Source: Oscillospiraceae bacterium
GTDB taxonomy: Bacteria > Bacillota > Clostridia > Oscillospirales > Acutalibacteraceae
Assembly (NCBI GenBank): GCA_022508805.1
Contig: JAFLUM010000001.1
Location: 182,793 to 246,792, forward strand
Direction: 5' to 3'
DNA: 64,000 nucleotides
Shown: positions 1 through 15,026 of the stretch, piece after piece
Layout: each line of letters opens with the position of its first letter
How positions within the stretch are numbered: the first letter of the stretch is position 1
The notes under the pieces: generated by a model
What the model was told of the DNA's origin: nothing
Seen by the model: only the letters and a program-made list of their open reading frames with translations
Database searches by the model: none
Position numbers and translations under genes: made by a program

Positions 1-64
1 AAGCGGAAAGTCCGAGAGTTGCAAGCATTGCAACTGCAAGTAATAAAGCAACTATCTTTTTCAT
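1..64 (-). CDS. Secreted small protein, N-terminus only (cut by window edge)
   Basis: Only the start codon and about 20 further codons are inside the window. They encode a textbook signal peptide: MKKI followed by a Leu/Ala/Val-rich core ending in GLSA. An AAAAGGAGA ribosome site precedes the ATG. Position, orientation and a signal peptide very like those of the next three genes suggest a fourth member of the same small secreted family, last in the operon that starts near 8353. The mature part is not visible, so family membership is inferred from context alone. Confidence 0.6.
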   Translation of the reverse strand, partial: MKKIVALLLAVAMLATLGLSA

Positions 65-96
65 TGTTATAAGTCTCCTTTTAAGAAATGATAGGC

Positions 97-191
97 TGTC
101 GAAAGAGAAACAATTGATAGTTTGATTGTCTCGCCTCTCCCTCTTTGAGGGAGAGGATTATGTTCCATCGCTAATTGTTACCGTTTCGACA
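97..191. repeat. Composite palindromic element
   Basis: Outer inverted arms TGTCGAAA-gag-AAACAATT (97-115) and AATTGTT-accg-TTTCGACA (173-191) enclose an inner perfect hairpin with arms CCTCTCCC and GGGAGAGG (134-156). The element fills most of the gap between two small secreted-protein genes. The inner hairpin has no T-run on either strand, so it is not a typical intrinsic terminator. The layout resembles a MITE-like or RNA-processing element inside the operon. Confidence 0.55.
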
Positions 192-206
192 AGCTCAAAG
201 AACTAA

Positions 207-713
207 TTAGTCAGCATTAACTACTGTAGCGGTGAAGGTAAGAGTATCGGAATACTCGCCAACAGGAGCAGCAGCCCACTGAGCCTCAGCAACCGTAACA
301 GAAGCAGCATAGGACTCGTTAGCAACAGCAGTAGCCGTTTTAACGTCTACATTGCCACCAAGAACATAAGCAAGTGTAGCGGTGTTAGCTGCCTCAGAAG
401 CAGACATTGTGCTATCTTCAGTAGTAACAGTTACGTTAAGTACCTTGTCATAAGCGAGCTGAGATTCTACTTTGTACTCAACAGCATTGGGAGCTGTGTC
501 GCCCCAAGCGATAACAGTCTCTGCCGGGAAAGTTACTTTGTACCATGTAGCATCCTTGCCGTCTTTGTCCACTGTGGAAGTCTTAACGATAGCGGTGTTG
601 TCCTCGCCGGCTGTGCCGTTGATGGTCTTGGGATTTTTAATCTCAGCAAAAGCCATAACGCTCATTGTGAAGAGCATTGCAACAGCAAGAACAATTGATA
701 ATACTTTTTTCAT
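207..713 (-). CDS. Small secreted protein with C-terminal W-AAP-G-YSD module (copy A)
   Basis: This 168-residue protein has a clear signal peptide (MKKVLSIVLAVAMLFTM...AFAE, cleavage near residue 23). The mature part is Thr/Val/Ala-rich and predicted all-beta. It shares a pattern with its two neighbours and with the last ~140 residues of the giant protein: V-T-F/Y-P-A near residue 66, a short YVLGG segment near 117, and a terminal W-x-A-A-P-x-G-x-Y-S-D-x-L-T-F-T motif. It lies 21 bases after the next gene upstream, with its own AGGAGG-type ribosome site, so it is co-transcribed. No sorting signal, lipobox or catalytic motif is visible. A structural surface or secreted subunit is the simplest guess; the function is unknown. 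Confidence 0.85.
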   Translation of the reverse strand: MKKVLSIVLAVAMLFTMSVMAFAEIKNPKTINGTAGEDNTAIVKTSTVDKDGKDATWYKVTFPAETVIAWGDTAPNAVEYKVESQLAYDKVLNVTVTTEDSTMSASEAANTATLAYVLGGNVDVKTATAVANESYAASVTVAEAQWAAAPVGEYSDTLTFTATVVNAD

Positions 714-734
714 TTCAATTTTCCTCCTTTATAA

Positions 735-1247
735 TTAGCCATTAACTGTGGCTGTGAATGTAAGAATGTCTGAATAAGTGCCAACGGGTGCTGCATCCCA
801 CTGTGCCTGGGGAATGTCAACGTAAACCGTCTTTGCACCTTCAGCGACAGCGCCGAGAACGAGATCCTGGAGAGCTGTTGTGCCTGCAGCGTCATCCTTG
901 AGGGTGTACTCAAGAGCATACTGGGCATCGTCAGCAAGAACCATCTTATTCGTGTCGGAAGCAACGTTTACCGTGAGGGTATGACCGAACTTGAGGTGTG
1001 TCGTTGCAGAATAGTCAACGTTTGCCTTACCTACGAGAGCGTTCCAGTCAAACTCTGTTGAAGCGGGATAAGTCACCGTGAAGGTAGCGCCGTCTTCGCC
1101 ATCAGCCGTAGTCTCTTTTGTAAGGATCGTAGATTCACCGGAAGTTGTTTTTGCATCGAGCGTGGGGTCGCCTTCTGCTGCAAATGCGGGAACTACTGCG
1201 AGAACCACCATCAAAAGAGCAACTGCGATTGAAATTACCTTTTTCAT
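735..1247 (-). CDS. Small secreted protein with C-terminal W-AAP-G-YSD module (copy B)
   Basis: This 170-residue protein has a signal peptide (MKKVISIAVALLMVVLAVV...AFAAE). The mature chain carries the family landmarks: VTYPAS then DWN near residues 60-70, ALEYTL in the middle, and QWDAAPVGTYSDILTFTATV at the end. It is more diverged from copies A and C in the middle, where it has a longer insertion before the final strand pair. An AAAGGAGG-type ribosome site precedes the ATG. It sits between copies A and C with gaps of only 21-24 bases. No transmembrane anchor or LPxTG-like motif is present. It looks like a secreted beta-sandwich subunit of unknown role. Confidence 0.85.
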   Translation of the reverse strand: MKKVISIAVALLMVVLAVVPAFAAEGDPTLDAKTTSGESTILTKETTADGEDGATFTVTYPASTEFDWNALVGKANVDYSATTHLKFGHTLTVNVASDTNKMVLADDAQYALEYTLKDDAAGTTALQDLVLGAVAEGAKTVYVDIPQAQWDAAPVGTYSDILTFTATVNG

Positions 1248-1271
1248 TTGAATAACCTCCTTTTAGAATAA

Positions 1272-1736
1272 TTATTTTTCAACATAACTGAGGGTGAACG
1301 TGAGTATATCACTGTAATCACCCGCCGGGGCTGCATTCCAATCCTCTTTTGCAACGTTAACGTTAAGCGGGAATACGGTTGTGTCATTGACTACCGTAAA
1401 CTCGATAGCATCAGCGCCGCCGAGAGTGTATGGAATGGATCCTCCGTCACCGACAAGAGCGCAGTCATTCTGAGATGTAACGGAAATTACCACTTTTTTA
1501 TGGGCGGCAATTACCATTCTCTCAGCATAAATTGTGCCGATTTCGAAGTCGCCTTCGGTATTCCACGGAATTTCAACATCTGCGGGATAAGTTACCGAGA
1601 TATCTTCCGTGCGCTCGGCATAAATTTCAGACCCACCGGTCGGTTCAGACGGAGTGGCGGTACCTGCGGACACGGGAAGCAAGCAGGAGAGAGCTATCAC
1701 CGTTACCGCAACAAGCACCGAAAGAAATTTTTTCAT
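1272..1736 (-). CDS. Small secreted protein with C-terminal W-AAP-G-YSD module (copy C)
   Basis: This 154-residue protein is the shortest complete member. It has a signal peptide (MKKFLSVLVAVTVIALSCLLPVSAG), a short Thr/Pro/Ser linker, then the shared domain: VTYPADVEIPWN near residue 50, IPYTLGGADAIEF near 105, and EDWNAAPAGDYSDILTFT at the end. It follows the giant secreted protein by 55 bases and has its own strong ribosome site (AAAGGAGA). It is the small copy nearest in position to the giant gene, whose C-terminus has the same order of landmarks. Function unknown; export is supported by the signal peptide. Confidence 0.85.
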   Translation of the reverse strand: MKKFLSVLVAVTVIALSCLLPVSAGTATPSEPTGGSEIYAERTEDISVTYPADVEIPWNTEGDFEIGTIYAERMVIAAHKKVVISVTSQNDCALVGDGGSIPYTLGGADAIEFTVVNDTTVFPLNVNVAKEDWNAAPAGDYSDILTFTLSYVEK

Positions 1737-1766
1737 ACACGGTCTCCTTTACTTGAATTTTATATT

Positions 1767-1782
1767 AACGGGAAAACCCGTT
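1767..1782 (-). other. Short hairpin between giant and small secreted genes
   Basis: AACGGG and CCCGTT arms surround a four-base loop. On the minus strand it follows the stop of the giant gene and is followed only by AATATAAAATT, not a clean U-run. It could be a weak or partial terminator, or an RNA-stabilising stem that sets the ratio of giant to small proteins. Neither reading is proven. Confidence 0.35.
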
Positions 1783-1791
1783 TATACCGTT

Positions 1792-4700
1792 TTAGGGCTG
1801 CTGATTAGGATCTGTAGCCGCTGTGTAATTCGCTGTGAAGGTCAGATTGCTGTCTTTATAACTGTTGACATAAGCCTGTTTCCACTGTGTATCCGATACC
1901 CAAACGCTTAGCGGATAATCACCGTCCTCATAGTTACCTGTACCGTTGACTGTAATGGTATTGAATGCGGTTTTCTTACTTGTATCAATTTTACCGTCTT
2001 CTAAACGGGTTACGGCTCCTCCGACCGTATATTTAATAGTCGGGGTAGGATTGGGAATGGTGATTCCTGCAAGCTTCTCATTGGTCGTGTCAAGTGTCAT
2101 CGTATGCTCTGCATTTGCACCTTGCAAATCGACCTTTAAGACGTCGTAATGGCTTGCATCATATTTATTCAAAATGCTGATGACTTTAACTGCAGGAGCT
2201 TCTGTTGCCAAGGCGTTAAAGTCAACTTCGATCTTAGCAGGAAGGCTTATTTCATAGAAGACCGAAGAGGACATAAAGCGTACGGGAATCTTCATTGTTG
2301 CAACCGCAACAGGCTTGATCACGTTACCTTCGCTATCCTTAAGCGTACCGTTTTGATATGCAGTAACATCATCTGTGTCGAATACGTCTACTGTGATGTA
2401 GCCTTCGTAAACAACGCCGGTCGGAATGTCCTTAACATCGTCTCCATTGATTTTAACCTGCATCGCCGTGAAGTAGTTAGTGCGGGCGGGATCGTCTGAT
2501 TTGTATCTGTTCGTGAATTTTCCGCCGTTGTCAATATATTTGCTGTAGTAAACGTTAACGGTTTTTTCACTGTCTCCGTCTTTTACGACTTCTTCAACCG
2601 GAGTCATGCCGTTAAGCTGTCCTACGGTAAATTTGAGCAGCTTGTTTTGCTCCTCACCGTTTACTACCTCTTTTTGTGTCTCACCGGCTACCTGCTCCAT
2701 TGTGAGATCAGAGGAAATCTGCAACGTTACGCTGTGACCGAGACGTGCCCAAACGTGGGGAAGATAGATTTGATTCGTCAAATCGGTGACGGTGGTCTCG
2801 TCATCCATTGTGAAAACGTATCCGCTTTTACTTATATCTGCCGCGCCCGGAGTCTGATCGTCTCTCAACTCCAGCTCTGCCGACGGGAACGGAATAACCA
2901 TATGCAGGTACTCGTTATACATTGAGTCCACAGTCTGATAACAATCATCAAATGCCTCGAACTTACGAATCTGATATTCGATCTCTTTAAGCTCGGTTTC
3001 ATTAATATAGTCATTCTTTCCGATTTGACCGGTTATAAAGCTGTGGATCTTGTGGACGAGTTCGGTGTAATACACGATACCGCCGGGAATCTCGCCGTCA
3101 TTCAGGTTAAGTACACCGTACTTATCGGTAACTTTGATAGGCTGACCTGTAGCGGCATCCGTAATACCCGATCTGTTACGTGCGTTGAGGTAAACCGTCA
3201 GCAATGCGTTAGACGCATCGCTCATATTACCGTAATCCGAAGATTCTGTAGAGTTTGTGATCATATACTTTGCGAAGATGGACATATAGAAATATTCCTG
3301 CATCGCATCGTATATATCCGGATTCAGCTCATCCGTGTTATACGTGCCGTCAGAATTCTTCGTGTACGCATCGATAGTCTTATCGATTTTATACTCATCG
3401 GGGATATCCTTACCCGCCAGATCCTTACCGGCTAAATTCTTGTAGACTTTGTCCGCAGTATCCGTGTAAAGAGCAATGAGCTCATTGAAGAAATTCTTCG
3501 TATTCGTGAGGTCTTCATTCAGCTCGCGGACACGCAGTGCGGCTCTGTAAGCATTCATAAGGACTGTGGTGTCGCCGAACGCCGCTTTTTCAGCTGCGCT
3601 GAGCCTTGTGTAGCCTAATTCATAGGCTTCGATCGCTTTTTTAACGATATCTTCCCAATTATCTTCGGTCAAGCCAAAGTAGCTGTAGTTTATTGTTCCC
3701 GTGGAAGAGTTATAAGCCTCCATTCTGGCGCCTTGTTTGGATGTGGCGGCAGCTTTTAACTCGTTGGGAAGAGATGCAAGAATATCTTTAATCTCTGCAG
3801 CGGTTTTATAAGGAGCATACCAATGGGAGCTTTCGTCGTTGATTAAACCGTAATTATTGTAAAGCTCTTCGTATGTGTCTAACTTATCCTTCGCAAGAAT
3901 AACGTCGGTAAGAGTTTGCTGATACTCGGAAAGAGCATTATACATATTACGCGCAGCGTCATAAGCAGCTTTAAATGCTTGTTCGCCCGCGTAGGGGTCA
4001 AGGGAATAAACCGCCTGAGTGAAGGTCTTTGAGTCGTCTGTCTTGGCGGCAAAGAACTCATCAAGGTTTGTAACTTCACTTAAGTATTGGTTCGCTGCTA
4101 TAAGATCAGCGTTAGGATCAGATGAAACTCTTGAAGCAGTAGCATTCTGGTCATAGGTGAAGCCCATACCGTCAACGGTTATGCTCTGACCACGGTTAGA
4201 GTTATCGTCGGTCCAGAACGCAATGTGAGCACGCTTGATCAGCACTTTGTCAAGGTTGTTGGCCAAGAATTGGTTGTCAACAGTACGGAATTTTGAAAGT
4301 GCGATACGGATAAAGCCCTTGTAATACTGCAATCCGCTGTAACCGGTGCTTATTGTACTTGCGTTAGCACCCTGGGGAACTGTGACCGCTTTCCACTGTC
4401 CGTCGTCGCCGATTATCCAAATTCTGTCGTTGGCATTAGCGTTGCCGGCAGCGTAGTAGTAAACCTGATCAGCTCCGGTTTGTTTATCCTGGACAATAAA
4501 CTGAAGGTTCATATATACGTTTTTAACCTGGGAGAAATCCACATACATTACAAAGGAGTTTGCCCAGAAATTATCGGTACCGCCGCCGTAACGGGTGCTG
4601 TCGGTAGCCATTGTTCCGTCTGCCCCACGATTTTGAAGCTGTATTGCGGAAAGATCAAGACCGGGCAAAGCAGATAATGTACCCGCAGTTCTTCCGTCAT

Positions 4701-7500
4701 AGGATACGGAAAGAACATTGTAAGCGCCCGTAACACTGCCGGCAAATCCGTCAAGGTTAATTGTAGCACCATGTGAGCCGTCATAGCCCTTGCCGGTTAT
4801 ATTAGCACTTACACGTGAGAATACATCGGCATTACCAAAGCCGACATCAGCACCGTATTTGCTTGTATAAGACGGATTGTAGGTACGGGGATACCAGCCG
4901 TAGCTGCCTTCTACCAGACTGTATCCATTAGTGGCATACACCGTAAAATTTCCGGCGTTATTTCGGTCTGCATCTGATGGACTGCCGTCACCCCATATAT
5001 AATTACCGTCGTTGTAATATCTGAACGCATATTCATTACTATAGTAGTTATTGTCAAAATTGTTAAACGGGATATAAGGATAAGCACCGACAGACTGACC
5101 CGTCTTTACTTCATCACCCAATACCATACGGTAAAGCTGCAGGAATTTAAGTTCACTGCCATCGCCGATAAAGTTCAGCTTATCAAGGTCAAAGCCCTTG
5201 TAAATACCTGCAAGCTCTGTTACCTCCTTGATAATATCGGGTGATTTAACATCGACAAACTCAGGGTCGGGAAGCAGCTCCACGCGCTCCTCAAATTCCC
5301 AAGCAAGGTCGTAATAGTTAGCATCAGCACCCAGATATTTCTCAATAAAGGCTTTGGCTTTTGCATATCTGTTATATGCATCCTGGTAGCCGAGATCCTT
5401 CAAGGTTCTCTCTAAATCATAGGGGAATTTGAAGCTATCGCCGTAAATCTCAACGGAATTGTCAATGAACTCCAGTGTATAGTAGTCAACCAATGACGGA
5501 ACATCACTAAAATATTCATCAATGAAAGCTGCTATAGCCGCAGGGACCTGCGTTGCTCTGTCATAATAGTTAGCCATTCTGTATCCGCGGTCAAGTGGTA
5601 GTCCCTTGGAGCCATCTTTGTCATCGTCTTTAGTATAGTCTTGGTGAAACTGAACAGGAGCGCTTGAGAGCACCTCGCCGGTATCTTTATCGTAGTCCGA
5701 TTCGCTGTTTGCGTCCGCTTTACGCATAAAGAACACCTGGTCAAAGTCAAATGAGTTGTAAACTGAATCCTCTGACCAGCCCTCAATTTCAATACCTGCG
5801 CCGACCATATCCGTTAACGGAGAGGCTCCGTTAGCTCGGTCGATATTATAATACGGAGCTCCGTTATATGTGCCGTTGAAATTAACAGATGTACCCTCTT
5901 GAAGCGCATAGCCCATGCTGGAGGTAATTTTCGATCCCCAACGGTCATAAGTTGTAAATCTGCTCTGAACTAAAAGACACTTTGAAATAGGCGTACCTGC
6001 CTTATTTACAAGAAGTCTGTAAACAGCCTTGTCGGTATTCGGAGTTGCAAAAAGATTAATTGAACCTTCCTTATTACCGCTCAAGAACTTCATTGTAACA
6101 CGTTCTCCCGGTATTGGATTACCGTTTACATCGTTTACATATATGCCGGAAGAGTACTTACTCTGCATAAACATCTGATTCTCAGCATATGCGATCTGAT
6201 TATTCGTGGCAGTAGTTTCGCTAAAAACACTATCACTATATTTATTACCGCTTTTACCCATATCCGAATTGGTTGCGGTGATATACTGGTCGACTTGGAT
6301 AATGAAATAATCAATCGGGATACGGATAAATCCTCGGTAACCGCCGAAGTTTTCAAGGTACCCGTCGGTCATAGTAATCTCTTCCCAAAGTCCCATTTCA
6401 TTTTGAATGTATATACCGCCTACGGTTCCCTCGTTTGCTCCGCCGACTGCCTTTGTGGAATAGAGTTCACCGTACATTGATTGATGGTCCTCGTCTTTAC
6501 CGTCTCTCCATACGTTACGGTATTTTTCGTTTGCTCTGAGGTTAAAGGCTATTTTATCAAAAGTAACATTACGGAAATCCACGTAGAACCAGACCTCTTC
6601 GGCACCCCCAAAATTATAGTGCTCACGGCTCCAAGTGGTGGTAAATGAGAACGGTTTACCCTTATAGGCGCTGTTTACCCAGAAATGGAAGGAGCTGGTA
6701 TTTGCAGTACTGCTGCTGTTTTCAATGCCCATATATGAGAATTTACCGTCAACATTGATACCGACATTATTGGCAGAACCATTAGTACCATCAGTACCAA
6801 AATAATCTACTCCATATGTGAGACCCGTACCGTTGCTAGAAATCGTGCCACCTTGGATAGTAGTATCATGATCGAACCTCTTCTCAAAGTTAAGCATTTC
6901 ACGGGCAACCCAGTTTTCATCGGGTGACGAGTCGACTGTAAGGTTATAATAAGGTATATCGTTAAGAACGGTATGTATGGTTTCTGAAACCCAATACTCA
7001 TTATCAACCGCGGTAATGCCGATGTCATATAATGCGCTGGGCTTAACGCCGCCTACCTTTGCAAAAGCTTCTGAAACCGAATCAGCACTGAGAGTTACCT
7101 TACGGGGATAAGAAGCATTTTCTATCTTCTCAACCATATTAAGCGGGAAATACATATCAATAAGCTTAACTTGGTTGGTCTGACCGCCGTCGATCTCAGT
7201 CAGTGTGACAATATAACCCTGAACTTCAACATTCTTGGAGATTTCACCGTCATTGTAATCATACGCAAATGCTCTGGGGAACAAAACCTCAATGGTGCCG
7301 TCGGCGTTCAAAGTAGCTGAGAACATGACCTCTTTAGAGCTTATTTTATTTGCACCGGCATCGTCCGACGCCCAATAGGGTGCGGGGTCATAGGTCCCGG
7401 CACCTGCCGCGCTCGCTATCATAAGCGGCAGCGAGGTGAGAACCATAACGACCGCCAACAGTACAGAAAGCACTCTTGTGGGAAGTATTTTTTGTTTCAT
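1792..7500 (-). CDS. Giant secreted multidomain protein (about 1902 aa)
   Basis: The chosen start is the ATG at 7500, seven bases after GGAAG; an ATG two codons earlier sits too close to that site. A signal peptide (KQKILPTRVLSVLLAVVMVL...ASAAG) opens the protein. Two Tyr/Phe/Gly-rich beta regions (about residues 215-405 and 900-1090) look like a duplicated domain: each has an xYVDF strand and, about 80-90 residues later, a GFIRI strand. A Glu/Lys/Ala-rich helical region follows (about 1130-1600). The last ~140 residues carry the module of the small secreted proteins (SLPAKIEVDFNAL, IKYTVGG, final YKDSNLTFTANY). There is no LPxTG, SLH, dockerin or C-terminal helix, so attachment is unclear. 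Probably a large surface-layer or binding scaffold; the enzymatic role, if any, is unknown. Confidence 0.85.
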   Translation of the reverse strand: MKQKILPTRVLSVLLAVVMVLTSLPLMIASAAGAGTYDPAPYWASDDAGANKISSKEVMFSATLNADGTIEVLFPRAFAYDYNDGEISKNVEVQGYIVTLTEIDGGQTNQVKLIDMYFPLNMVEKIENASYPRKVTLSADSVSEAFAKVGGVKPSALYDIGITAVDNEYWVSETIHTVLNDIPYYNLTVDSSPDENWVAREMLNFEKRFDHDTTIQGGTISSNGTGLTYGVDYFGTDGTNGSANNVGINVDGKFSYMGIENSSSTANTSSFHFWVNSAYKGKPFSFTTTWSREHYNFGGAEEVWFYVDFRNVTFDKIAFNLRANEKYRNVWRDGKDEDHQSMYGELYSTKAVGGANEGTVGGIYIQNEMGLWEEITMTDGYLENFGGYRGFIRIPIDYFIIQVDQYITATNSDMGKSGNKYSDSVFSETTATNNQIAYAENQMFMQSKYSSGIYVNDVNGNPIPGERVTMKFLSGNKEGSINLFATPNTDKAVYRLLVNKAGTPISKCLLVQSRFTTYDRWGSKITSSMGYALQEGTSVNFNGTYNGAPYYNIDRANGASPLTDMVGAGIEIEGWSEDSVYNSFDFDQVFFMRKADANSESDYDKDTGEVLSSAPVQFHQDYTKDDDKDGSKGLPLDRGYRMANYYDRATQVPAAIAAFIDEYFSDVPSLVDYYTLEFIDNSVEIYGDSFKFPYDLERTLKDLGYQDAYNRYAKAKAFIEKYLGADANYYDLAWEFEERVELLPDPEFVDVKSPDIIKEVTELAGIYKGFDLDKLNFIGDGSELKFLQLYRMVLGDEVKTGQSVGAYPYIPFNNFDNNYYSNEYAFRYYNDGNYIWGDGSPSDADRNNAGNFTVYATNGYSLVEGSYGWYPRTYNPSYTSKYGADVGFGNADVFSRVSANITGKGYDGSHGATINLDGFAGSVTGAYNVLSVSYDGRTAGTLSALPGLDLSAIQLQNRGADGTMATDSTRYGGGTDNFWANSFVMYVDFSQVKNVYMNLQFIVQDKQTGADQVYYYAAGNANANDRIWIIGDDGQWKAVTVPQGANASTISTGYSGLQYYKGFIRIALSKFRTVDNQFLANNLDKVLIKRAHIAFWTDDNSNRGQSITVDGMGFTYDQNATASRVSSDPNADLIAANQYLSEVTNLDEFFAAKTDDSKTFTQAVYSLDPYAGEQAFKAAYDAARNMYNALSEYQQTLTDVILAKDKLDTYEELYNNYGLINDESSHWYAPYKTAAEIKDILASLPNELKAAATSKQGARMEAYNSSTGTINYSYFGLTEDNWEDIVKKAIEAYELGYTRLSAAEKAAFGDTTVLMNAYRAALRVRELNEDLTNTKNFFNELIALYTDTADKVYKNLAGKDLAGKDIPDEYKIDKTIDAYTKNSDGTYNTDELNPDIYDAMQEYFYMSIFAKYMITNSTESSDYGNMSDASNALLTVYLNARNRSGITDAATGQPIKVTDKYGVLNLNDGEIPGGIVYYTELVHKIHSFITGQIGKNDYINETELKEIEYQIRKFEAFDDCYQTVDSMYNEYLHMVIPFPSAELELRDDQTPGAADISKSGYVFTMDDETTVTDLTNQIYLPHVWARLGHSVTLQISSDLTMEQVAGETQKEVVNGEEQNKLLKFTVGQLNGMTPVEEVVKDGDSEKTVNVYYSKYIDNGGKFTNRYKSDDPARTNYFTAMQVKINGDDVKDIPTGVVYEGYITVDVFDTDDVTAYQNGTLKDSEGNVIKPVAVATMKIPVRFMSSSVFYEISLPAKIEVDFNALATEAPAVKVISILNKYDASHYDVLKVDLQGANAEHTMTLDTTNEKLAGITIPNPTPTIKYTVGGAVTRLEDGKIDTSKKTAFNTITVNGTGNYEDGDYPLSVWVSDTQWKQAYVNSYKDSNLTFTANYTAATDPNQQP

Positions 7501-7525
7501 TTCCATTCTTCCTTTCTGAAAAATC

Positions 7526-8353
7526 TTACTCAGCAACTATCTTGGTGGAGACCACCATATTGTTGAGCGGGGTCCGTGCCTGGTCATAGGAATAGGGCTG
7601 TTCCATAACGAGAACGTTATATTCGCCCGCCTCCAACGCACGGTCTAAGCTGAATTTTGATATGGAATAACCCGGTCTGACCAATCCGGATTGATAAATC
7701 TTTTCATCGCCGGCATCTATCTTTTTATCGCCGTTCTTATCAATATAAATGGTAAACTCCATAAAACAGATACCATCGTTTTGTGCGGAGTTGGTAAGCA
7801 CAAAATTCTGCTCACGCTGACCTGCCTTCAAGTGCATTTCGGGAATGCCGATAATGGTGACGTTTTTCGTTGAGACATCCACTTTGTCGGGCAACTCAAG
7901 ATCTGCAAACGGATCCTGATCGCCGTCAAGTGAACCGTAAGGCTTTGTGGTATCCGGTTCATCAACATTGGCGTTCGCTTTTATGGCGTATGTGATACCC
8001 GCGATAAGCGCCGCCAAAATCGCAAGTCCTAATATTATAAAGAATATGATCAGAGCTGTAATGTCTTTTTTTACGGCTATGAAAGTGCCGTCTTCAAGCT
8101 CAACATAGCCCACGACCTTTTTGTTTGCCGCGGAACGCGCCCTGTAAACAGGTTCTTCTATGCCACCCACGGTCACTGAGCCTATAATATCCTCTTTTTT
8201 ACCGTAGCCAAACTGACCTACAACTCGCATTCCGCCACCGGGGAAGAGATCTTTCATCTCTTTTTGTGAGTAATAACCCACCGAAAGCCCCGTGTCACCG
8301 TTACGGTAGAACGCAGAATAGTGGTTATCGGTTTTTATTCTGAAATCTGCCAA
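7526..8353 (-). CDS. Single-pass membrane protein heading the secreted-protein operon
   Basis: This 275-residue protein starts at TTG (8353) after AGAGGGTGG. Residues 1-95 form a soluble Gly-rich region with no signal peptide. A strong transmembrane helix follows (about 98-125, ITALIIFFIILGLAILAALI). The C-terminal ~150 residues appear to be an external beta domain with an Asp-rich calcium-loop-like segment (DKNGDKKIDAGDE) and a terminal GEYNVLVMEQ strand. The orientation suggests the N-terminus inside and the C-terminus outside. It is first in the operon, 25 bases before the giant gene's start, so an anchor, assembly or sensing role for the secreted proteins is plausible but inferred. I do not recognise a named family. 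Confidence 0.75.
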   Translation of the reverse strand: MADFRIKTDNHYSAFYRNGDTGLSVGYYSQKEMKDLFPGGGMRVVGQFGYGKKEDIIGSVTVGGIEEPVYRARSAANKKVVGYVELEDGTFIAVKKDITALIIFFIILGLAILAALIAGITYAIKANANVDEPDTTKPYGSLDGDQDPFADLELPDKVDVSTKNVTIIGIPEMHLKAGQREQNFVLTNSAQNDGICFMEFTIYIDKNGDKKIDAGDEKIYQSGLVRPGYSISKFSLDRALEAGEYNVLVMEQPYSYDQARTPLNNMVVSTKIVAE

Positions 8354-8708: not shown

Positions 8709-10145
8709 TTAGTATGCTTTTCCCCAATAGAGCATTTTTTCGGCAGGCTTACCGCAGCATACGCAGGTGTCGGACACATTTTCCTGCTCAAAGGGAACAC
8801 AGCGTGAGGTGATTCCCGCTTTTTCCTTAAGAGCATCTTCACATTCGCGGCTGCCACACCACATGGCCTTGATAAAGCCCGGTTTATTCTCGGCAATGTC
8901 GCAAAGCATATCAAAATCAGTTGCAGTAAAGGTCATATTTGCCCGTCTTTCTGCCGCTGAGTCGTAAAGTCCCTTTTGAACGGCGTCAAGCAGCTCGGGA
9001 ATCCTCTCTTCTAACTCGTCAAAAGAAACAAAATACTTTTCTCTTGTATCGCGGCGGACTATAACGCACTGATTTTTCTCGATATCTCTCGGTCCTATTT
9101 CAACACGGAGGGGCACGCCCTTCATCTCATACTCGGCGTATTTCCAGCCTGGGGTATTGTCGGAGAGGTCGATTTTTGCCCTTGAGAACTTGGAAATTCT
9201 TTCGTAGATCTCCTGTGATTTTTCCTTAACGCCCTCTTTATGAGCGGCTACGGGGATAACCACCACCTGCGTGGGGGCTATTTTCGGCGGAAGGACAAGT
9301 CCGTTGTCGTCACCGTGAGTCATAATTATTGCGCCGATAAGGCGGGTCGTACAACCCCACGAGGTCTGGAACGGATGTTTAAGCTTATTGTCCCTATCTG
9401 TAAACTGAATATCAAAGGCTTTCGCAAAGCCGTCGCCGAAATAGTGGCTGGTGGCGGACTGGAGCGCCTTGCCGTCGTGCATAAGCGCCTCGACGGTGTA
9501 TGTATCCTCCGCGCCTGCAAAACGCTCTTTCTCGGTCTTAACGCCCTTTACCACGGGAATTGCAAGGTAATTCTCGCAAAAATCGGCATAGACATTCAGC
9601 ATTCTGACTGTTTCCTCCTGCGCCTCTTCTGCCGTGGCGTGGACGGTGTGACCCTCCTGCCACAAAAATTCTCTTGTACGCAAAAAGGGTCTTGTGGTCT
9701 TTTCCCAACGGACTACCGACACCCACTGGTTATAGAGTTTGGGCAAATCACGGTAGGAATGGACTATGTTAGCATAATGCTCACAGAAAAGCGTCTCGGA
9801 TGTAGGTCGAACACAAAGACGCTCCTCAAGCTTTTCACTGCCGCCGTAAGTCACCCACGCAACCTCGGGAGCAAAACCCTCTACATGGTCTTTTTCTTTG
9901 TTGAGAAGACTTTCGGGAATGAACATGGGCATACAGACGTTTTCGTGTCCCGTTGCCTTGAACATGCCGTCAAGAGTCTTTTGTATATTTTCCCAAATGG
10001 CATAGCCGTAAGGTCTTATGACCATACAGCCCTTTACGCTTGTGTACTCGGCAAGCTCAGCCTTTTTTACCACGTCGGTATACCACTTGGCAAAATCCTC
10101 GTCCATTGAGGTTATTTCCTCAACCATCTTTTTCTGTTCAGCCAT
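8709..10145 (-). CDS. proS: Prolyl-tRNA synthetase, archaeal/eukaryotic-type
   Basis: This 478-residue class II synthetase charges tRNA-Pro with proline in the cytosol. It is the short form without the bacterial editing insertion. Visible features are [11 protein letters not shown] near residue 90, the motif 2 region [12 protein letters not shown] and [11 protein letters not shown], the later [11 protein letters not shown], an anticodon-binding part ([10 protein letters not shown]), and a C-terminal CVPFEQ...CVCCGKP cysteine segment ending in a terminal Tyr, as in the ProS type 3 family. An AAGGAAG ribosome site precedes the ATG. It follows acpP by 70 bases and is probably co-transcribed with it. 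The identification is secure. Confidence 0.97.
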
Positions 10146-10171
10146 TTTCTAACTTCCTTATCTGAATAATT

Positions 10172-10195
10172 ACAGGGACAGCAGAGTGTCCCTGT
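10172..10195 (-). other. Hairpin between acpP and proS
   Basis: Perfect arms ACAGGGACA and TGTCCCTGT flank a six-base loop. No U-run follows on the minus strand (AATTATT), so it may be only a partial terminator or an RNA-stability element that lowers proS relative to acpP. Confidence 0.4.
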
Positions 10196-10215
10196 GAAAA
10201 TAAACGATTAACGAA

Positions 10216-10440
10216 TTAATGTTCTTCGATAAATTTAACAATATCGGCAACGGTCTTTATATCCTCAAGTGCCTCGTCCGATATCTCCATATCAAACTCA
10301 TCCTCAAATGTCATAACAAGATCTGCAAGGTCGATACTGTCAGCACCTAAGTCCTCAAGCAAAACGGAGTCCATAGTGACGTCCTCTGTCTCAAGCTCAA
10401 GCTGATCACAAATTATTTCCTGTACCTTTTCAAAAACCAC
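10216..10440 (-). CDS. acpP: Acyl carrier protein
   Basis: At 74 residues and strongly acidic, this is the normal length for a fatty-acid-synthesis ACP. The phosphopantetheine-attachment serine lies in DLGADSIDLADLVM near residue 36, the standard DSL-type motif. It carries growing acyl chains as thioesters in the cytosol. The start is GTG, placed just after AGGAGGTG with normal spacing. No fab genes adjoin it; it stands alone upstream of proS. An Sfp-type transferase elsewhere in the window (30189-30728) could in principle modify it, although AcpS is the usual enzyme. Confidence 0.95.
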   Translation of the reverse strand: MVFEKVQEIICDQLELETEDVTMDSVLLEDLGADSIDLADLVMTFEDEFDMEISDEALEDIKTVADIVKFIEEH

Positions 10441-10472
10441 TGTAACACCTCCTCGAGAGTTTCTTGATAATA

Positions 10473-10501
10473 ATACTAATTATTTTTATCTGCTTTGTCA
10501 A
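10473..10501 (-). promoter_or_regulatory. Sigma-A-type promoter for acpP
   Basis: On the minus strand, TTGACA (10496-10501) is separated by 17 bases from TAGTAT (10473-10478), about 35 bases before the GTG start of acpP. The -35 is perfect and the -10 only 4 of 6. Confidence 0.55.
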
Positions 10502-10505
10502 CAGT

Positions 10506-12029
10506 TTAAGGTAAATTTATGAAATCTTTGAGTGGGGTCAGATCTAAACCCTCTTCATCTTTTATCATATTATAAAAGGTTTTGCATATCTCGCGGCATC
10601 CGCCGTCGGTATCGCTTTCTGCATTGAAGGGCATAACAGGGTCGTGAACGGACAAACGCAGCAGGAACCAGCCGCATCTTTTTCCGTCGTCAAATGAGAC
10701 ACGTACCCCTTCGTAGTTATCGGGAGCAAGTCGCATTTCGCTGCTGTTAACGGCAATAACCTTGATTTTTTCGATAATTGCCTCGCCTGTGCTCTTAAAA
10801 TCAGCGGTTTTTATGTTAAAGCGAAGCTCCTTTTCCTCTTTCGGCTTTTTAAGGGATTTTATGCAGTCGCCTATCTTTCTGCCGTCACGGGCAAGGACAG
10901 CCGCCTTGATAATGATTTTGGTGACAAGATATGCACCGTCGTCAAGATAATAATTCTCTTTGAATGCGGCGTGACCCGAGGTCTCGATGGCAAGGGGCAC
11001 GTTCTCCCCTGCCGCCGTTCTGCGGACAGCCTCGTCGATCACGTTTTTATAGCCTCTTTTAAAGCGGACGTGTTTTCCGCCCAAGGTATCTTCAATAAAG
11101 CTGTGGAGTCCGTCGCCGGTGACTGAATCGGTGACCACGGTTCCGCCGAAATTCCCCTCTAAAGCGATTACGGACGCCAGCGCAACTATGGAATTGCGGT
11201 TTATCTCCTCGCCTGTTTCGTCCACGCAGGAGGCACGGTCAACGTCCGTGTCGAAAATAACGCCGAGGTCACATTTGTTCTCAACCGTGGCTTTTCTGAT
11301 GAACTCCATTGCGGTTTTGTTTTCGGGATTGGGGATATGGTTAGGGAACATTCCGTCTATATCCAAAAACTGACTTGCAGATGTGTCCGCCCCCAAAACG
11401 GCGAGCACCTTTTCGGCATAAAATCCGCCCACGCCGTTGCCTGCATCCACAGCGATTTTAAAGTCCTTTAAAGGATGCTCATAATCGTCGGCATTAACGC
11501 CTTTTTTAATCATTTCCCGCAAAATCGCGGAATATTCGGAAATATAGTCGATTTCCTCAATACTTCCGTTTTTATTTTCATTTATATACGGACTTTTTTC
11601 GGCATCAATGAGTATCTCTTTAAGCTCCTCACCTGAGAGTCCGCCGTCACGTGTGAAAAATTTAAGTCCGTTGCGGTCATAGGGATGATGGCTTGCGGTT
11701 ATCTGCACAGCTCCGTCGCAGTTTCTTGTCACGGTTGTCATAAACATTGCGGGAGTGGAGCAGTACGAGCAGTAAAGTATATGCGCTCCCATTCCCGACA
11801 GAACAGATATAACGCTGTTTTTAATGCGTATTGCCGATATTCTTGAATCGTGACCGACCGAGACGGTCAAATTATCGGCACTTTTTCCCGTCTTTTTGCA
11901 AAGAAATCTTATAAACGATGCGGTGATGTGGCTAATTACCTCATCGGTCAGCTCATATTCGGGGTGTTCCTTCGTGCTGACAGCGGTTCCTCTAACGTCA
12001 GTTCCGCTTTTAAGGTGCATAAGCTTCAT
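10506..12029 (-). CDS. Phosphoglucomutase/phosphomannomutase family protein
   Basis: This is an alpha-D-phosphohexomutase (about 507 aa) interconverting hexose 1- and 6-phosphates. The active-site phosphoserine loop is TASHHPYDRNG, the metal loop is FDTDVDRAS (DxDxDR form), the sugar loop is ETSGHAAF, and the phosphate-binding end is GWFLLRLSVHDPV. The last replaces the usual RxSGTEP and is, from memory, typical of a subgroup close to plant and cyanobacterial enzymes. The ATG at 12029 overlaps the stop of the preceding PLP-enzyme gene (ATGA) and has AAGGGGA before it, so it is preferred over longer in-frame starts. It is last in the galK operon. Glucose versus mannose preference cannot be read from sequence. 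Confidence 0.88.
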   Translation of the reverse strand: MKLMHLKSGTDVRGTAVSTKEHPEYELTDEVISHITASFIRFLCKKTGKSADNLTVSVGHDSRISAIRIKNSVISVLSGMGAHILYCSYCSTPAMFMTTVTRNCDGAVQITASHHPYDRNGLKFFTRDGGLSGEELKEILIDAEKSPYINENKNGSIEEIDYISEYSAILREMIKKGVNADDYEHPLKDFKIAVDAGNGVGGFYAEKVLAVLGADTSASQFLDIDGMFPNHIPNPENKTAMEFIRKATVENKCDLGVIFDTDVDRASCVDETGEEINRNSIVALASVIALEGNFGGTVVTDSVTGDGLHSFIEDTLGGKHVRFKRGYKNVIDEAVRRTAAGENVPLAIETSGHAAFKENYYLDDGAYLVTKIIIKAAVLARDGRKIGDCIKSLKKPKEEKELRFNIKTADFKSTGEAIIEKIKVIAVNSSEMRLAPDNYEGVRVSFDDGKRCGWFLLRLSVHDPVMPFNAESDTDGGCREICKTFYNMIKDEEGLDLTPLKDFINLP

Positions 12030-13303
12030 TGAATCAGTCCCCTTTTGTGCATTTCCTCGGCTGCGAGCATTACGCCGATTTTTCCGCTGTGGAAATTGAG
12101 TGAGCCCTGCATCCATACAGCATAAGGCTCTCTGAGCGGTGCATCTGCCGAAAGCTCTATTGACGAGCCTGATGTAAATGCCCCTGCCGACATTATGACC
12201 TGACTGTCATAGCCGGGCATATCCCACGGTTCGGGAGTCACATACGAATCAACGGGCGCGCCCTTTTGCATACCTTGACAGAAAGCAATAAGATTATCGC
12301 GGTTATCAAGGCATATTGCCTGTATTATATCGTGTCTGATCTCATTTGAACAGGGTGTAACATTAAAGCCGAGCTCCTCAAACAGCGATGCGGCAAAAAC
12401 TGCCGTTTTAAGCGCCTCACCTACCACATGGGGAGCGTTGAAAAGTCCCATAAAAATATTTCTGTTCTGACCAAGCGTTGCTCCTACCTCAACGCCTAAG
12501 CCCGGATTAGTGAGCCTGTAGCCGCACAATTTCACAAGATCGGCACGTCCTGCTATGTATCCGCCTGAGGGTGCAATACCGCCGCCTGCATTTTTAATGA
12601 GGGAGCCTGCAATAAGGTCTGCTCCCACCTCGGTAGGTTCTTTCCTCTCCGTAAACTCACCGTAGCAGTTATCCACCATAACGACTGCACGTTTATTTAC
12701 CCTATGTACTATTTCGCAGACCTTTTCTATTTCGTCTATTGAAATGCTGTGGCGAAGGGAATATCCGCGAGAGCGCTGAATATACACCATTCGCACATCC
12801 TTTGCCGCTGATGCTTTTTCGATAGAATCATAGTCGAGTCCGTCATTTTCGGTCAAATCTACTTGGCTGTAAGATATTCCGAAATCCGCCAAGCTGCCGT
12901 CGCCCATATTTTTGCCGCCGAGACCGATAACGGGATGAATTGTATCGTACGGAGTGCCCGTAACGCAAAGCATAGTATCACCCGGTCTCAAAACGCCGTA
13001 AAGGCAGACTGAAAGCGTGTGAGTTCCGCAAGCCAGCGCACCCGCACGGATTATTGCACTTTCTGCACCGAAAATATCGGCGGTAAGGCTATCCAGCTTT
13101 TCTCTGCCCCTGTCGCCGTAGCCGTAGCCCGTGGCGGTGTTAAAATCCGCCTCGTCCACACGGTTTTTGATAAATGCAGAGAGCACCTTTTGCTGATTGT
13201 ACTCCGTCACACTTTCAATTTCTCCGAACATTTTCTCCGCTTTTTTTAGAGCAGCAGCGGAAAGCTCCTTTATTTTCGGACTTATCTCAAAATAATCTGA
13301 CAT
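12026..13303 (-). CDS. Methionine gamma-lyase/aluminium-resistance family PLP enzyme
   Basis: This 425-residue fold-type I PLP protein belongs to the cystathionine/methionine lyase-like group often annotated as aluminium resistance protein (COG4100). The conserved core is visible: IQRSRGYSLRHSISIDEIE, MVDNCYGEF holding the PLP-contacting Asp, and GSLIKNAGGGIAPSGGYI holding the probable Schiff-base Lys. TNPGLGVEVGATLGQNR further supports the family. AAAGGAT precedes the ATG. It overlaps the phosphohexomutase start by four bases and follows the GNAT gene by 12. The true substrate of this family is uncertain; a carbon-sulfur lyase activity is a family-level inference. Confidence 0.88.
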   Translation of the reverse strand: MSDYFEISPKIKELSAAALKKAEKMFGEIESVTEYNQQKVLSAFIKNRVDEADFNTATGYGYGDRGREKLDSLTADIFGAESAIIRAGALACGTHTLSVCLYGVLRPGDTMLCVTGTPYDTIHPVIGLGGKNMGDGSLADFGISYSQVDLTENDGLDYDSIEKASAAKDVRMVYIQRSRGYSLRHSISIDEIEKVCEIVHRVNKRAVVMVDNCYGEFTERKEPTEVGADLIAGSLIKNAGGGIAPSGGYIAGRADLVKLCGYRLTNPGLGVEVGATLGQNRNIFMGLFNAPHVVGEALKTAVFAASLFEELGFNVTPCSNEIRHDIIQAICLDNRDNLIAFCQGMQKGAPVDSYVTPEPWDMPGYDSQVIMSAGAFTSGSSIELSADAPLREPYAVWMQGSLNFHSGKIGVMLAAEEMHKRGLIQ

Positions 13304-13315
13304 ATTTTTTATCCT

Positions 13316-14017
13316 TTATATATAATTGTATAACTCTTTCACAACAGTGAAGCCGAGTTTTTCATAAAATCCTATATTTTTCTCTTTACAAATCAAATAG
13401 ACATTTTCTTTTGAAGACAGCTTTAGAAGTTTTTTGACTAAATCCGAACCGTATCCTTTGCCACGGTATTCTTCCTTGACATATACATCCGATATAACCG
13501 AATAATCATTGCCGAAGGATACGAATCCGCCGCCGATGATCCTACCGTTTTCATAAATCACCGCACCTTGGCATAAGCCTTTGGCGTTCTGATACATTTT
13601 GACCGCCGCACCGTCCGTGGCCTTTGCAATATCCTCGGTGTCAAGATGTTTTATATCAAAATAAAGATTACGGTCAACGCCTTTTTCGCCTCGGTCGTAC
13701 TGCGACCGTGCGAGCATTAAATATTGCGTCTCTGCCGTACCAAAGGGTAAGATATCGGGAGAAATAACACTGCCGTTAACAAGAAAACTCAGCTCGTCAT
13801 AATCGGCATTTTCGTCGGTAAAAAGCAAGGTTCTGCCGCTCTCTCCCACCGCCGCGGCGGCAGTTATGCGGTCATCACGGTCATACTGTGCCCATACAAT
13901 ACCGCTGTTCAGCCGTTCATCGGTATAGTAGCCTGTTACGGCCGAAAAAATTGCGGAGTTTCCTTCGCCTAAATAGTTAAAAAACGTCTGCGGTAAAATC
14001 TCAAAGGATTTAAGCAT
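13316..14017 (-). CDS. GNAT-family N-acetyltransferase
   Basis: The C-terminal ~90 residues hold the acetyl-CoA-binding signature: DVYVKEEYRGKGYGSDLVKKL matches the R/Q-x-x-G-x-G/A motif A, and IGFYEKLGFTVV matches the closing motif. The N-terminal ~140 residues are a less typical domain that may set substrate choice. The ATG at 14017 lies seven bases after GGGAG and overlaps the M42 stop by eight bases; a TTG two codons earlier is too close to the site. The acetyl acceptor is not predictable. Confidence 0.85.
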   Translation of the reverse strand: MLKSFEILPQTFFNYLGEGNSAIFSAVTGYYTDERLNSGIVWAQYDRDDRITAAAAVGESGRTLLFTDENADYDELSFLVNGSVISPDILPFGTAETQYLMLARSQYDRGEKGVDRNLYFDIKHLDTEDIAKATDGAAVKMYQNAKGLCQGAVIYENGRIIGGGFVSFGNDYSVISDVYVKEEYRGKGYGSDLVKKLLKLSSKENVYLICKEKNIGFYEKLGFTVVKELYNYI

Positions 14018-15026
14018 CGGCAAGCTCCCTTAAAAGAGCCTTTGCGAGCCTTTCTACGCTGTCGATGTCCTTTTCACTGCAGACCGACGACGGTGAATGG
14101 ATATATCTGCACGGTACGGACACCGCGACCGTTTTTATACCGCCTGCAGCTTTATGAATAGCCGACGAATCGTTGCCGCCTGCTACGACTGTTTTTGTCT
14201 GGCAGGGAATACCGTTTTTCTCGGCAGTTTCAAAGGCTTTTTTATAAAGTTCGCGGTCATAGAGGGTACCCCTGTCCATAAAGGATACCACCGCTCCGCC
14301 GCTCACCTTGCAGACCTTTTTGTGATCCGGTGTATCGGCAATATCCGAGGCCGTGGTAGTCTCGAGCACAATTGCATAATCGGGCTTTACGGTATATGCG
14401 CTGACGGTCGCTCCGCGTGTACCTATTTCTTCCTGCACGGTGAAAACACAGGTATAGTCGAAATCCGACTCCTCATTAAGAATATTTATTAGTGTCGCCG
14501 TGCCTATTCTGTCGTCAAGTGCCTTTGATTTAACGAATCCGTCTCCGAAACATACAAAGTCCGATTTAAAATATACGAAATCGCCCAAAGCGACTTTTTC
14601 TTCCGCCTGCTCCTTATTTTCAAAGCCGAAATCAAGGGTCATATCGGTGATTTTCGGTATCTTTTTGCCCTCGTCACCACTGCACAGGTGAATCGCCTTG
14701 CCGCCGGCAACGCCGTTAACGCCGTTCACCGTGACTCTTTTACCGAACAGAGCCGAGTCGTCCATTCCGCCCACGGGAGCAACACGGACATAACCGTCGT
14801 CGGTGATGTATGTTACGATAAAGCCCACCTCGTCCATATGGGCAAAAAGGGCTACTTTCTTTTTAGGCGTTCTTTTACCTTTTTTATTGACGATAAGGTT
14901 GCCGAGAGCGTCAACGGTGTATTCGCAGTCCGCAGGGAGAAGAGAAATCAGTTCATTTCTAACATCTTTTTCGTCACCTGAGGTACCGTTTATCATACAG
15001 AGTTTTTCAATCAAATTTATATCCAT
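14010..15026 (-). CDS. M42-family aminopeptidase (first copy)
   Basis: This ~338-residue cytosolic dinuclear-metal peptidase is of the glutamyl-aminopeptidase/cellulase-M type (PF05343). Metal and catalytic residues are seen in FAHMDEVGF (HxD), KALDDRIG, the general-base pair in TVQEEIGTRGA, an E in VLETTTASD and the late His in RYIHSPSSV. These enzymes trim peptides, usually as a dodecamer. The ATG at 15026, after GAGGGTG, is preferred; it sits five bases after the stop of the second M42 gene. The two neighbouring copies are clearly paralogous but well diverged. Confidence 0.9.
   Translation of the reverse strand: MDINLIEKLCMINGTSGDEKDVRNELISLLPADCEYTVDALGNLIVNKKGKRTPKKKVALFAHMDEVGFIVTYITDDGYVRVAPVGGMDDSALFGKRVTVNGVNGVAGGKAIHLCSGDEGKKIPKITDMTLDFGFENKEQAEEKVALGDFVYFKSDFVCFGDGFVKSKALDDRIGTATLINILNEESDFDYTCVFTVQEEIGTRGATVSAYTVKPDYAIVLETTTASDIADTPDHKKVCKVSGGAVVSFMDRGTLYDRELYKKAFETAEKNGIPCQTKTVVAGGNDSSAIHKAAGGIKTVAVSVPCRYIHSPSSVCSEKDIDSVERLAKALLRELADA

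Follow-up and report, generated by a model that had tools for sequence, protein, structure and literature searches.

The DNA analysed here (the window) is a 64,000-nt stretch of contig C1 (G000:C1:182793–246792) of the 1.96 Mb genome, in 30 contigs, of a gut clostridium. Its left end carries part of an eight-gene operon on the minus strand, with the order head, giant, small3, small2, small1, small4, small5, anchor. This order follows from the left flank (locus L005), which carries the operon on with small4, small5 and a 334-aa anchor-like protein. The open reading frames of the initial annotation are present where it placed them, and the operon is bigger than described: the fourth small gene, noted as cut by the window edge, starts at position 64 and runs on outside, and inspecting the left flank, as that annotation had asked, showed this gene to be followed by a fifth small gene and by a protein with a membrane anchor at its C-terminus. 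The names tip, adaptor, shaft and chaperone used for the products are our proposals. The features are as follows.

8472–8443, minus strand: promoter-like site upstream of the head gene (11 of 12 consensus positions)
7526–8353, minus strand: head protein, 275 aa, the operon's first gene, with one match in its own genome (ORF listing)
8000–8056, minus strand: transmembrane (TM) segment of the head, residues 100–118 (hydropathy scan)
7529–7876, minus strand: external domain of the head, the part matched across Clostridia
1792–7500, minus strand: giant secreted protein, 1902 aa from ATG or 1914 aa from an upstream TTG (ORF listing)
1795–2235, minus strand: C-terminal shared module of the giant, about its last 145–147 residues (HMM, shuffles)
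1272–1736, minus strand: small3, 154 aa, adjacent to the giant, proposed adaptor (ORF listing; in the clade of first small genes)
735–1247, minus strand: small2, 170 aa, proposed shaft subunit (ORF listing; module HMM)
207–713, minus strand: small1, 168 aa, proposed shaft subunit (ORF listing; module HMM)
1–64, minus strand: start of small4, continuing in the left flank at L005 16177–16857 (left-flank sequence)
L005 15627–16151, outside the window: small5, 174 aa, after small4
L005 14572–15576, outside the window: anchor-like protein, 334 aa, after small5

The genes are closely packed, with spacings calculated from the coordinates of 25, 55, 24 and 21 nt inside the window and then 142 nt before small4, and from this spacing and the common strand we infer that all eight are probably carried on a single transcript. 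The promoter upstream of the head is only suggestive, as promoter-like sites of all scores number 21 in 8.8 kb against 14.8 expected by shuffling, and a GC-rich hairpin followed by a T run, read by eye, lies 3′ of the anchor gene. Within small4, just left of window position 1, there is a run of 100 N (L005 16694–16793), which is probably an assembly gap between overlapping ends rather than lost sequence, because both of its flanks carry the same ~47 bases. The 142-nt gap between small1 and small4, whose counterpart in L037 is 44 nt, contains a palindromic hairpin at 134–156 (10 pairs, loop of 3), possibly a REP-like element; its 17-base core occurs once in the window, and a similar one lies near L005 14360–14390. 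Adjoining the operon in L005 are genes that we take to be HydF/HydG/HydE-like hydrogenase maturation genes and a SpoVAD-like gene (8725–12450 and 13122–14150). The anchor end is adjoined in two close relatives by large proteins with what are presumably response-regulator-receiver-like ends (L037 3659–6625 and L038 11905–14835), making these possible regulators.

The three small proteins complete in the window share a common order of elements, VT[FY]PA, then a YTLGG-like strand, then a final strand, and the giant presents ISLPA and YTVGG in the first two positions. We built an HMM on 36 small proteins taken from other genomes, leaving out giants and all sequences from the window's own genome, and it matched four of the 191 window ORFs of at least 60 aa, namely the three small proteins (E = 1.7e-38, 1.2e-34 and 1e-33) and the giant (8.6e-8). 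The initial annotation had proposed that the three small proteins (168, 170 and 154 aa) share a module, as the matches of this outside profile to all three bear out, and that the giant's C-terminus follows in the same motif order; the latter stands for the order and the profile match, but the giant's version of the final motif (WKQAYVNSYKDSNLTFT) is weaker. The last 160 residues of the giant score 34.4 bits versus 12.3 for the best of 1000 shuffles, so that, as judged from sequence, the likeness between its module and those of the small proteins is beyond chance. The same holds among the relatives, where a small-protein HMM, with its first 45 columns and all giants removed but including small proteins of some of the same genomes, matched the module in 17 of 17 other giants (E from 6e-10 to 4e-25), always ending 1–8 residues before the C-terminus. 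Five giants contain further short module-like stretches, although only that of L068, located just before the module, reaches an independent E below 0.01 (2.4e-3). Sharing of the module by giant and small proteins is thus established, and we consider that the module is best interpreted as a putative interaction or assembly domain.

The proteins of the operon also carry hydrophobic secretion and membrane segments. A hydrophobic N-terminal segment is present in the three window small proteins and small5 (residues 4–22 or 5–23) and in the giant (residues 10–28), and the giant shows no internal repeats when compared with itself by BLAST. Early in the mature small proteins lies a short alternating strand (VkTsT or MxIST). 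With mature starts placed by a crude regex, most middle types have a tail of very roughly 10–20 residues after the signal peptide and then the strand (VkTsT), whereas 8 of 11 first-type small proteins begin within ~5 residues of it, among the 60 of 80 rows listed; small3 of the window does not begin directly with it. The anchor-like protein has a hydrophobic N-terminus or signal peptide, a C-terminal TM segment and then KRKK, and starts with a QLSTVVP-like strand resembling that of the small proteins. This common N-terminal strand is only suggestive, because the anchor HMM also matches five whole small proteins, in part probably via similar signal peptides. The anchor-like protein further contains a carboxypeptidase-regulatory-like stretch (PF13620, E = 1e-5, 26.2 bits against a cut-off of 32.3), and its C-terminus weakly matches the EF2685/EF0750 family of sortase-dependent surface proteins (NCBIfam, E = 0.0092, 16.5 bits against a cut-off of 47).

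This tail could bring to mind a pilus assembled by sortase, with a degenerate sorting signal in its base protein: the TM segment and KRKK tail of the anchor are preceded by an I-[PS]-x-[TLM]-[GDS]-A-like stretch, and the window's own genome has seven sortase-family matches above cut-off (G000 C1:69783, C12:197294, C12:198720, C13:5588, C28:29192, C28:85555 and C28:87294). None of these lies in the operon, however, and the stretch varies among 16 anchors. The giant and the four small proteins examined have neither a C-terminal TM segment nor an LPxTG outside the signal peptide; a loose LPxTG regex over seven operon proteins had LPVSA, where small3's signal peptide ends, as its sole match, and Pfam gave neither SLH nor dockerin domains for the five window proteins at E ≤ 1, in agreement with the earlier remark that all three features are missing. 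We therefore regard a sortase-built pilus as highly improbable, and favour an assembly that does without sortase.

The initial annotation had also placed a one-pass membrane protein at the head of the operon, and the hydropathy scan indeed detects a single hydrophobic segment in this protein, at residues 100–118. By inference, its N-terminal part of ~97 residues is cytoplasmic and its C-terminal part would form an external beta domain on the outer face of the membrane, with the wide consensus I-P-G-Y … N-P-x-x-N-x-C-Y-F … Y-x-S-x-L-x-x-P-G … P-L-N. Distant heads mostly consist of the TM helix and the external domain alone. Residues ~10–100 (window ~8056–8326) are, conversely, matched elsewhere in proteins without the external domain, with no domain name attached (G063:C1:841172, G1145:C44:20003, G1002:C19:30899, G824:C69:7526 and G833:C36:56036).

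To place these genes among their relatives, we considered the 21 loci found by scanning genomes with the head alignment, four of which break off at a contig end after the head. In all 17 uncut loci the head is followed by the giant and then by the first small gene on one strand, with a head–giant gap of −4 to 86 nt in 14 loci and 563–1036 nt in three. An anchor gene, whole or cut by the locus end, lies within the flank covered in 13 of the 17, a count that omits the anchor HMM's matches to small genes, five of them whole and one cut at the end of L063. Matches to the giant occur in 21 of the 147 genomes searched, 20 in the genus (the window's own included) and one in another genus. Among the 39 genomes of the genus, 20 have both a full-length head (E < 1e-90, 21 genomes) and a giant, one has the head only, none the giant only and 18 neither (Fisher 3e-10). 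With any head-alignment match (E ≤ 0.001, 23 of the 39 genomes) the same classes count 20, 3, 0 and 16 (Fisher 2.6e-8), and two of the 18 genomes with neither full-length head nor giant have a distant head-domain match. The elaborate system is thus patchy but gained and lost whole, and failure of the genes to co-occur in related genomes, which the initial annotation had named as grounds for dropping its proposal, is not what we observed.

Loci differ in how many small genes they have, from 3 (L072, which belongs to another genus) to at least 10 (L041). We placed 115 modules in a tree, from which one small protein of fewer than 100 residues, cut by the locus end, was omitted, and in which the bootstrap had not settled and 43 of 112 inner branches stay open. 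There, the small genes directly following the giant group in a single clade in 18 of 18 loci (small3 and 17 others; support 99/82). The small gene that directly precedes the anchor belongs to small5's clade (98/90) in 9 of the 14 loci in which the anchor is seen and outside it in L065, L068, L072, L074 and L075; this clade also includes small4 and some inner genes. The remaining small genes are divergent paralogues of variable number. Most giant modules (14 of 18) group with the first-small and small5 types (97/91), whereas the window's giant module is divergent, sharing a branch of length 1.2 with those of three close giants apart from the other 14. Taken together, the profile matches, synteny, co-presence and position-specific clade show that giant and small proteins carry one module, as proposed earlier, and that they form one co-inherited unit. 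A series of subunits that has a tip and an invariant first member would be expected to leave such a tree pattern, though the pattern is not proof of one.

The same tree might be produced by tandem duplication of independent secreted adhesins or decoys, which would have the module in common with the giant by descent and not for assembly, as the middle genes vary in number and diverge strongly and the last type is not constant. Such independence fits poorly with a first type that holds both its position and its clade in 18 of 18 loci, with a system gained and lost as a unit, and with a pairing of head domain and module that recurs outside the genus (see below), and we judge it decidedly unlikely. 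We accordingly prefer to see the small proteins as members of a common assembly with the giant.

Searches of known families gave little guidance. In per-protein Pfam and NCBIfam scans GLUG, found in the L091 giant, was the only family to reach its curated cut-off, and because neither the external head domain nor the small module has a match above cut-off, the genes of the operon are likely annotated as hypothetical proteins. Alignment scans, which state no cut-offs, reached best E-values of 2.9e-4 for small proteins (SCPU, DUF1616), 0.0098 for heads and 9e-4 for wider heads (CARDB), and a PHROGs scan 0.0085. We did not assign the small proteins to SCPU (PF05229): only small2 of 41 small proteins matches it, at 21.6 bits below the cut-off of 22.4; a scan of phylum genomes gave 0 of 398, with no match to the positive control either. 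A search of PDB sequences with the small modules yielded chance or signal-peptide matches (best E 0.79 and 0.022), likewise set aside. The heads have one weak match to Mfa_like_1 (E = 0.084), and Pfam/NCBIfam scans of the window proteins at E ≤ 1 revealed no Peptidase_M73/camelysin-type domain. No usher family appeared in Pfam scans of all eight operon proteins, the small-protein scan being read among the 25 of 45 families listed.

The external domain of the head shows a faint resemblance to PapD-like chaperones. Searched alone against 177635 distinct PDB sequences, it has FimC as its best match, in the first strand (E = 0.23, not significant); with the full-length wide head alignment FimC is third among molecules (E = 0.39), behind two TM matches, and with the genus-head alignment it is absent at E ≤ 10. 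By hhalign, heads against six K-12 chaperones gave 17.8% and small proteins against 14 K-12 pilins gave 20.1% over only 11 columns, neither significant alone, while the crossed pairs gave 0.2% and 1.3%.

The closest parallel in gene plan lies with the WxL/csc clusters, which, going by the portions of PMC10599100 and PMC1534035 available to us, comprise a small WxL protein, a large WxL protein, a WxLIP (DUF916-DUF3324-TM) and a short LPxTG protein. Here as there, one cluster combines module-only small proteins, a large protein with the common C-terminal module, a membrane partner and a short anchor-like protein. A wall-complex arrangement has been proposed for small and large WxL proteins with WxLIP. 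By analogy, the operon could encode a wall complex with no polymer, in which each module attaches to the wall or to the head, so that the small proteins cover the cell surface and the giant exposes its binding portion there. The resemblance extends to the final strand, the only segment that hhalign aligns between the operon module and the WxL module, and to the anchor's weak EF2685/EF0750 match. None of the WxL/csc families was matched here, however, and no LPxTG. The WxL family (PF13731) was rejected for the module: it has no match at E ≤ 1 in the window small proteins and giant and none in the own genome, while an L. lactis control matched; it is not among the 25 of 45 families listed for the 41 small proteins; and hhalign gave 0.5%. 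A W-x-[LIV] regex over four small proteins, giant and anchor found only one WII, in the giant, and no W-x-L in the small proteins. Likewise, DUF916/DUF3324 were found neither in the window head nor in 15 heads nor, among the 25 of 35 families listed, in 31 heads. According to PMC1534035, CscA has a C-terminal TM segment, after its external domain, whereas the TM segment of the head precedes its external domain. WxL/csc clusters typically have one small gene as opposed to 3 to at least 10 here, and Siezen et al. 2006, as far as the text available goes, reports csc clusters to be absent from clostridia. A WxL-like coat is nonetheless the main rival, accounting for the gene plan nearly as well as assembly in series does; ordered paralogues with a constant first type suit a series better than a coat, and we hold the coat to be somewhat doubtful.

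Returning to assembly in series, we read the operon as a kind of multi-component adhesive surface assembly, most likely one that builds an undescribed surface fibre or complex. More specifically, and tentatively, the operon may encode one sortase-independent fibre or complex made up of a giant tip, an adaptor, a shaft, an anchor and a chaperone-like head. In such a scheme the head's external domain would lie outside the membrane and there receive or chaperone the secreted module proteins; these would afterwards link up end to end via the shared module, most plausibly with each mature subunit donating its short N-terminal beta strand. Both strand donation and polymerisation are conjectural, the leads towards them being the weak FimC match of the head domain and the hhalign values given above. 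Counting against the scheme are the last small gene being of another type in 5 of 14 loci, the absence of FimC with the genus heads, the mature start of the window's small3, the divergent module of its giant and the 23 of 40 head loci outside the genus that gave no module match within 4 kb. The giant would cap the outer end, as suggested by the C-terminal position of its module and by its having no free N-terminal strand of that kind, and its large N-terminal part would be the binding portion. Next would come small3 as adaptor, the middle small proteins as shaft and small5 last, with the 334-aa protein anchoring the base in the membrane. A bolder version, which we think unlikely, is a donor-strand pilus of monoderm Clostridia, in which tip, adaptor, shaft and anchor are polymerised at the cytoplasmic membrane by a one-pass PapD-like chaperone without usher or sortase, with simpler forms, consisting of the head domain and one or a few small modules, in other gut Clostridia.

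This scheme has points in common with several known fibres. Adaptor and shaft subunits of chaperone-usher pili are ~150 aa in length, and in the archaic (SCPU-type) and type 1 systems, as proposed here, the tip protein has an N-terminal binding part and a C-terminal subunit domain; further likenesses are the adaptor and shaft subunits and, more tentatively, a chaperone-like partner with its weak FimC resemblance and the one SCPU match below cut-off. The operon differs in several ways: the scans showed no usher family, an outer membrane is not expected, and the putative chaperone is tethered to the membrane and has just one external domain. In Porphyromonas, the Mfa1 fimbriae (type V pili) are Gram-negative structures that arise from lipoprotein precursors by protease-triggered strand exchange. 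They resemble the operon, in the source excerpts available, in encoding shaft, anchor and several tip or accessory proteins in one cluster, but show no sequence relation to its proteins beyond the weak Mfa_like_1 match. The Bacillus TasA/CalY/TapA or CapP filaments are not known to include a giant tip protein or to have several paralogous subunits encoded in a single operon. No family match links these filaments to the operon, and their likeness to it, going for CapP by part of PMC13082335, lies in a sortase-independent Gram-positive fibre with small secreted subunits and a dedicated assembly protein. The pili of Pseudoruminococcus (PMC8726730) are type IV pili according to the part of that source available, and are not the system of the operon. 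Since the tests for WxL, DUF916/DUF3324 and LPxTG failed, no usher was found in the operon and features of the TasA/CalY and sortase types did not appear, we file the operon under no known family; the titles and abstract openings returned by literature searches contained no description of such a system.

If the strand-donation reading is true, bacteria that lack an outer membrane would join those with pilus assembly of the chaperone type. The recurring pair of head and module is in any case a testable candidate for the means by which these commensal Clostridia present their giant binding proteins. This combination is found well beyond the window, its elaborate form being found in the genus of Candidatus Fimenecus. 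The head alignment matches 61 of 300 genomes (41 of 135 genera) in the family and 24 of 391 genomes (18 of 223 genera) across the class, five of these 24 in the N-terminal part only. Around head matches outside the genus, 17 of 40 loci, chosen from the scan matches and several of them from one genome, have a module HMM match within 4 kb and 23 do not. Module-matching ORFs number 24 of 794 near heads versus 6 of 827 far from them (Fisher 6.6e-4), and all 24 near matches lie on the head's strand. This HMM version is fairer than an earlier near/far comparison (31 of 301 versus 10 of 347), for which the motif had been picked after viewing the loci. In L090, L092 and L097 we observed small proteins ending in an AGxYxDTVTF-like sequence together with a small protein bearing a C-terminal TM segment, and L091 has the same set and a 1363-aa protein with GLUG motifs, its small genes lying just past 4 kb. 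A 4.4-Mb single-contig genome of the class (G1147:C1, L135–L139) has six head-domain matches, some beside small module proteins, which suggests several parallel systems in one genome.
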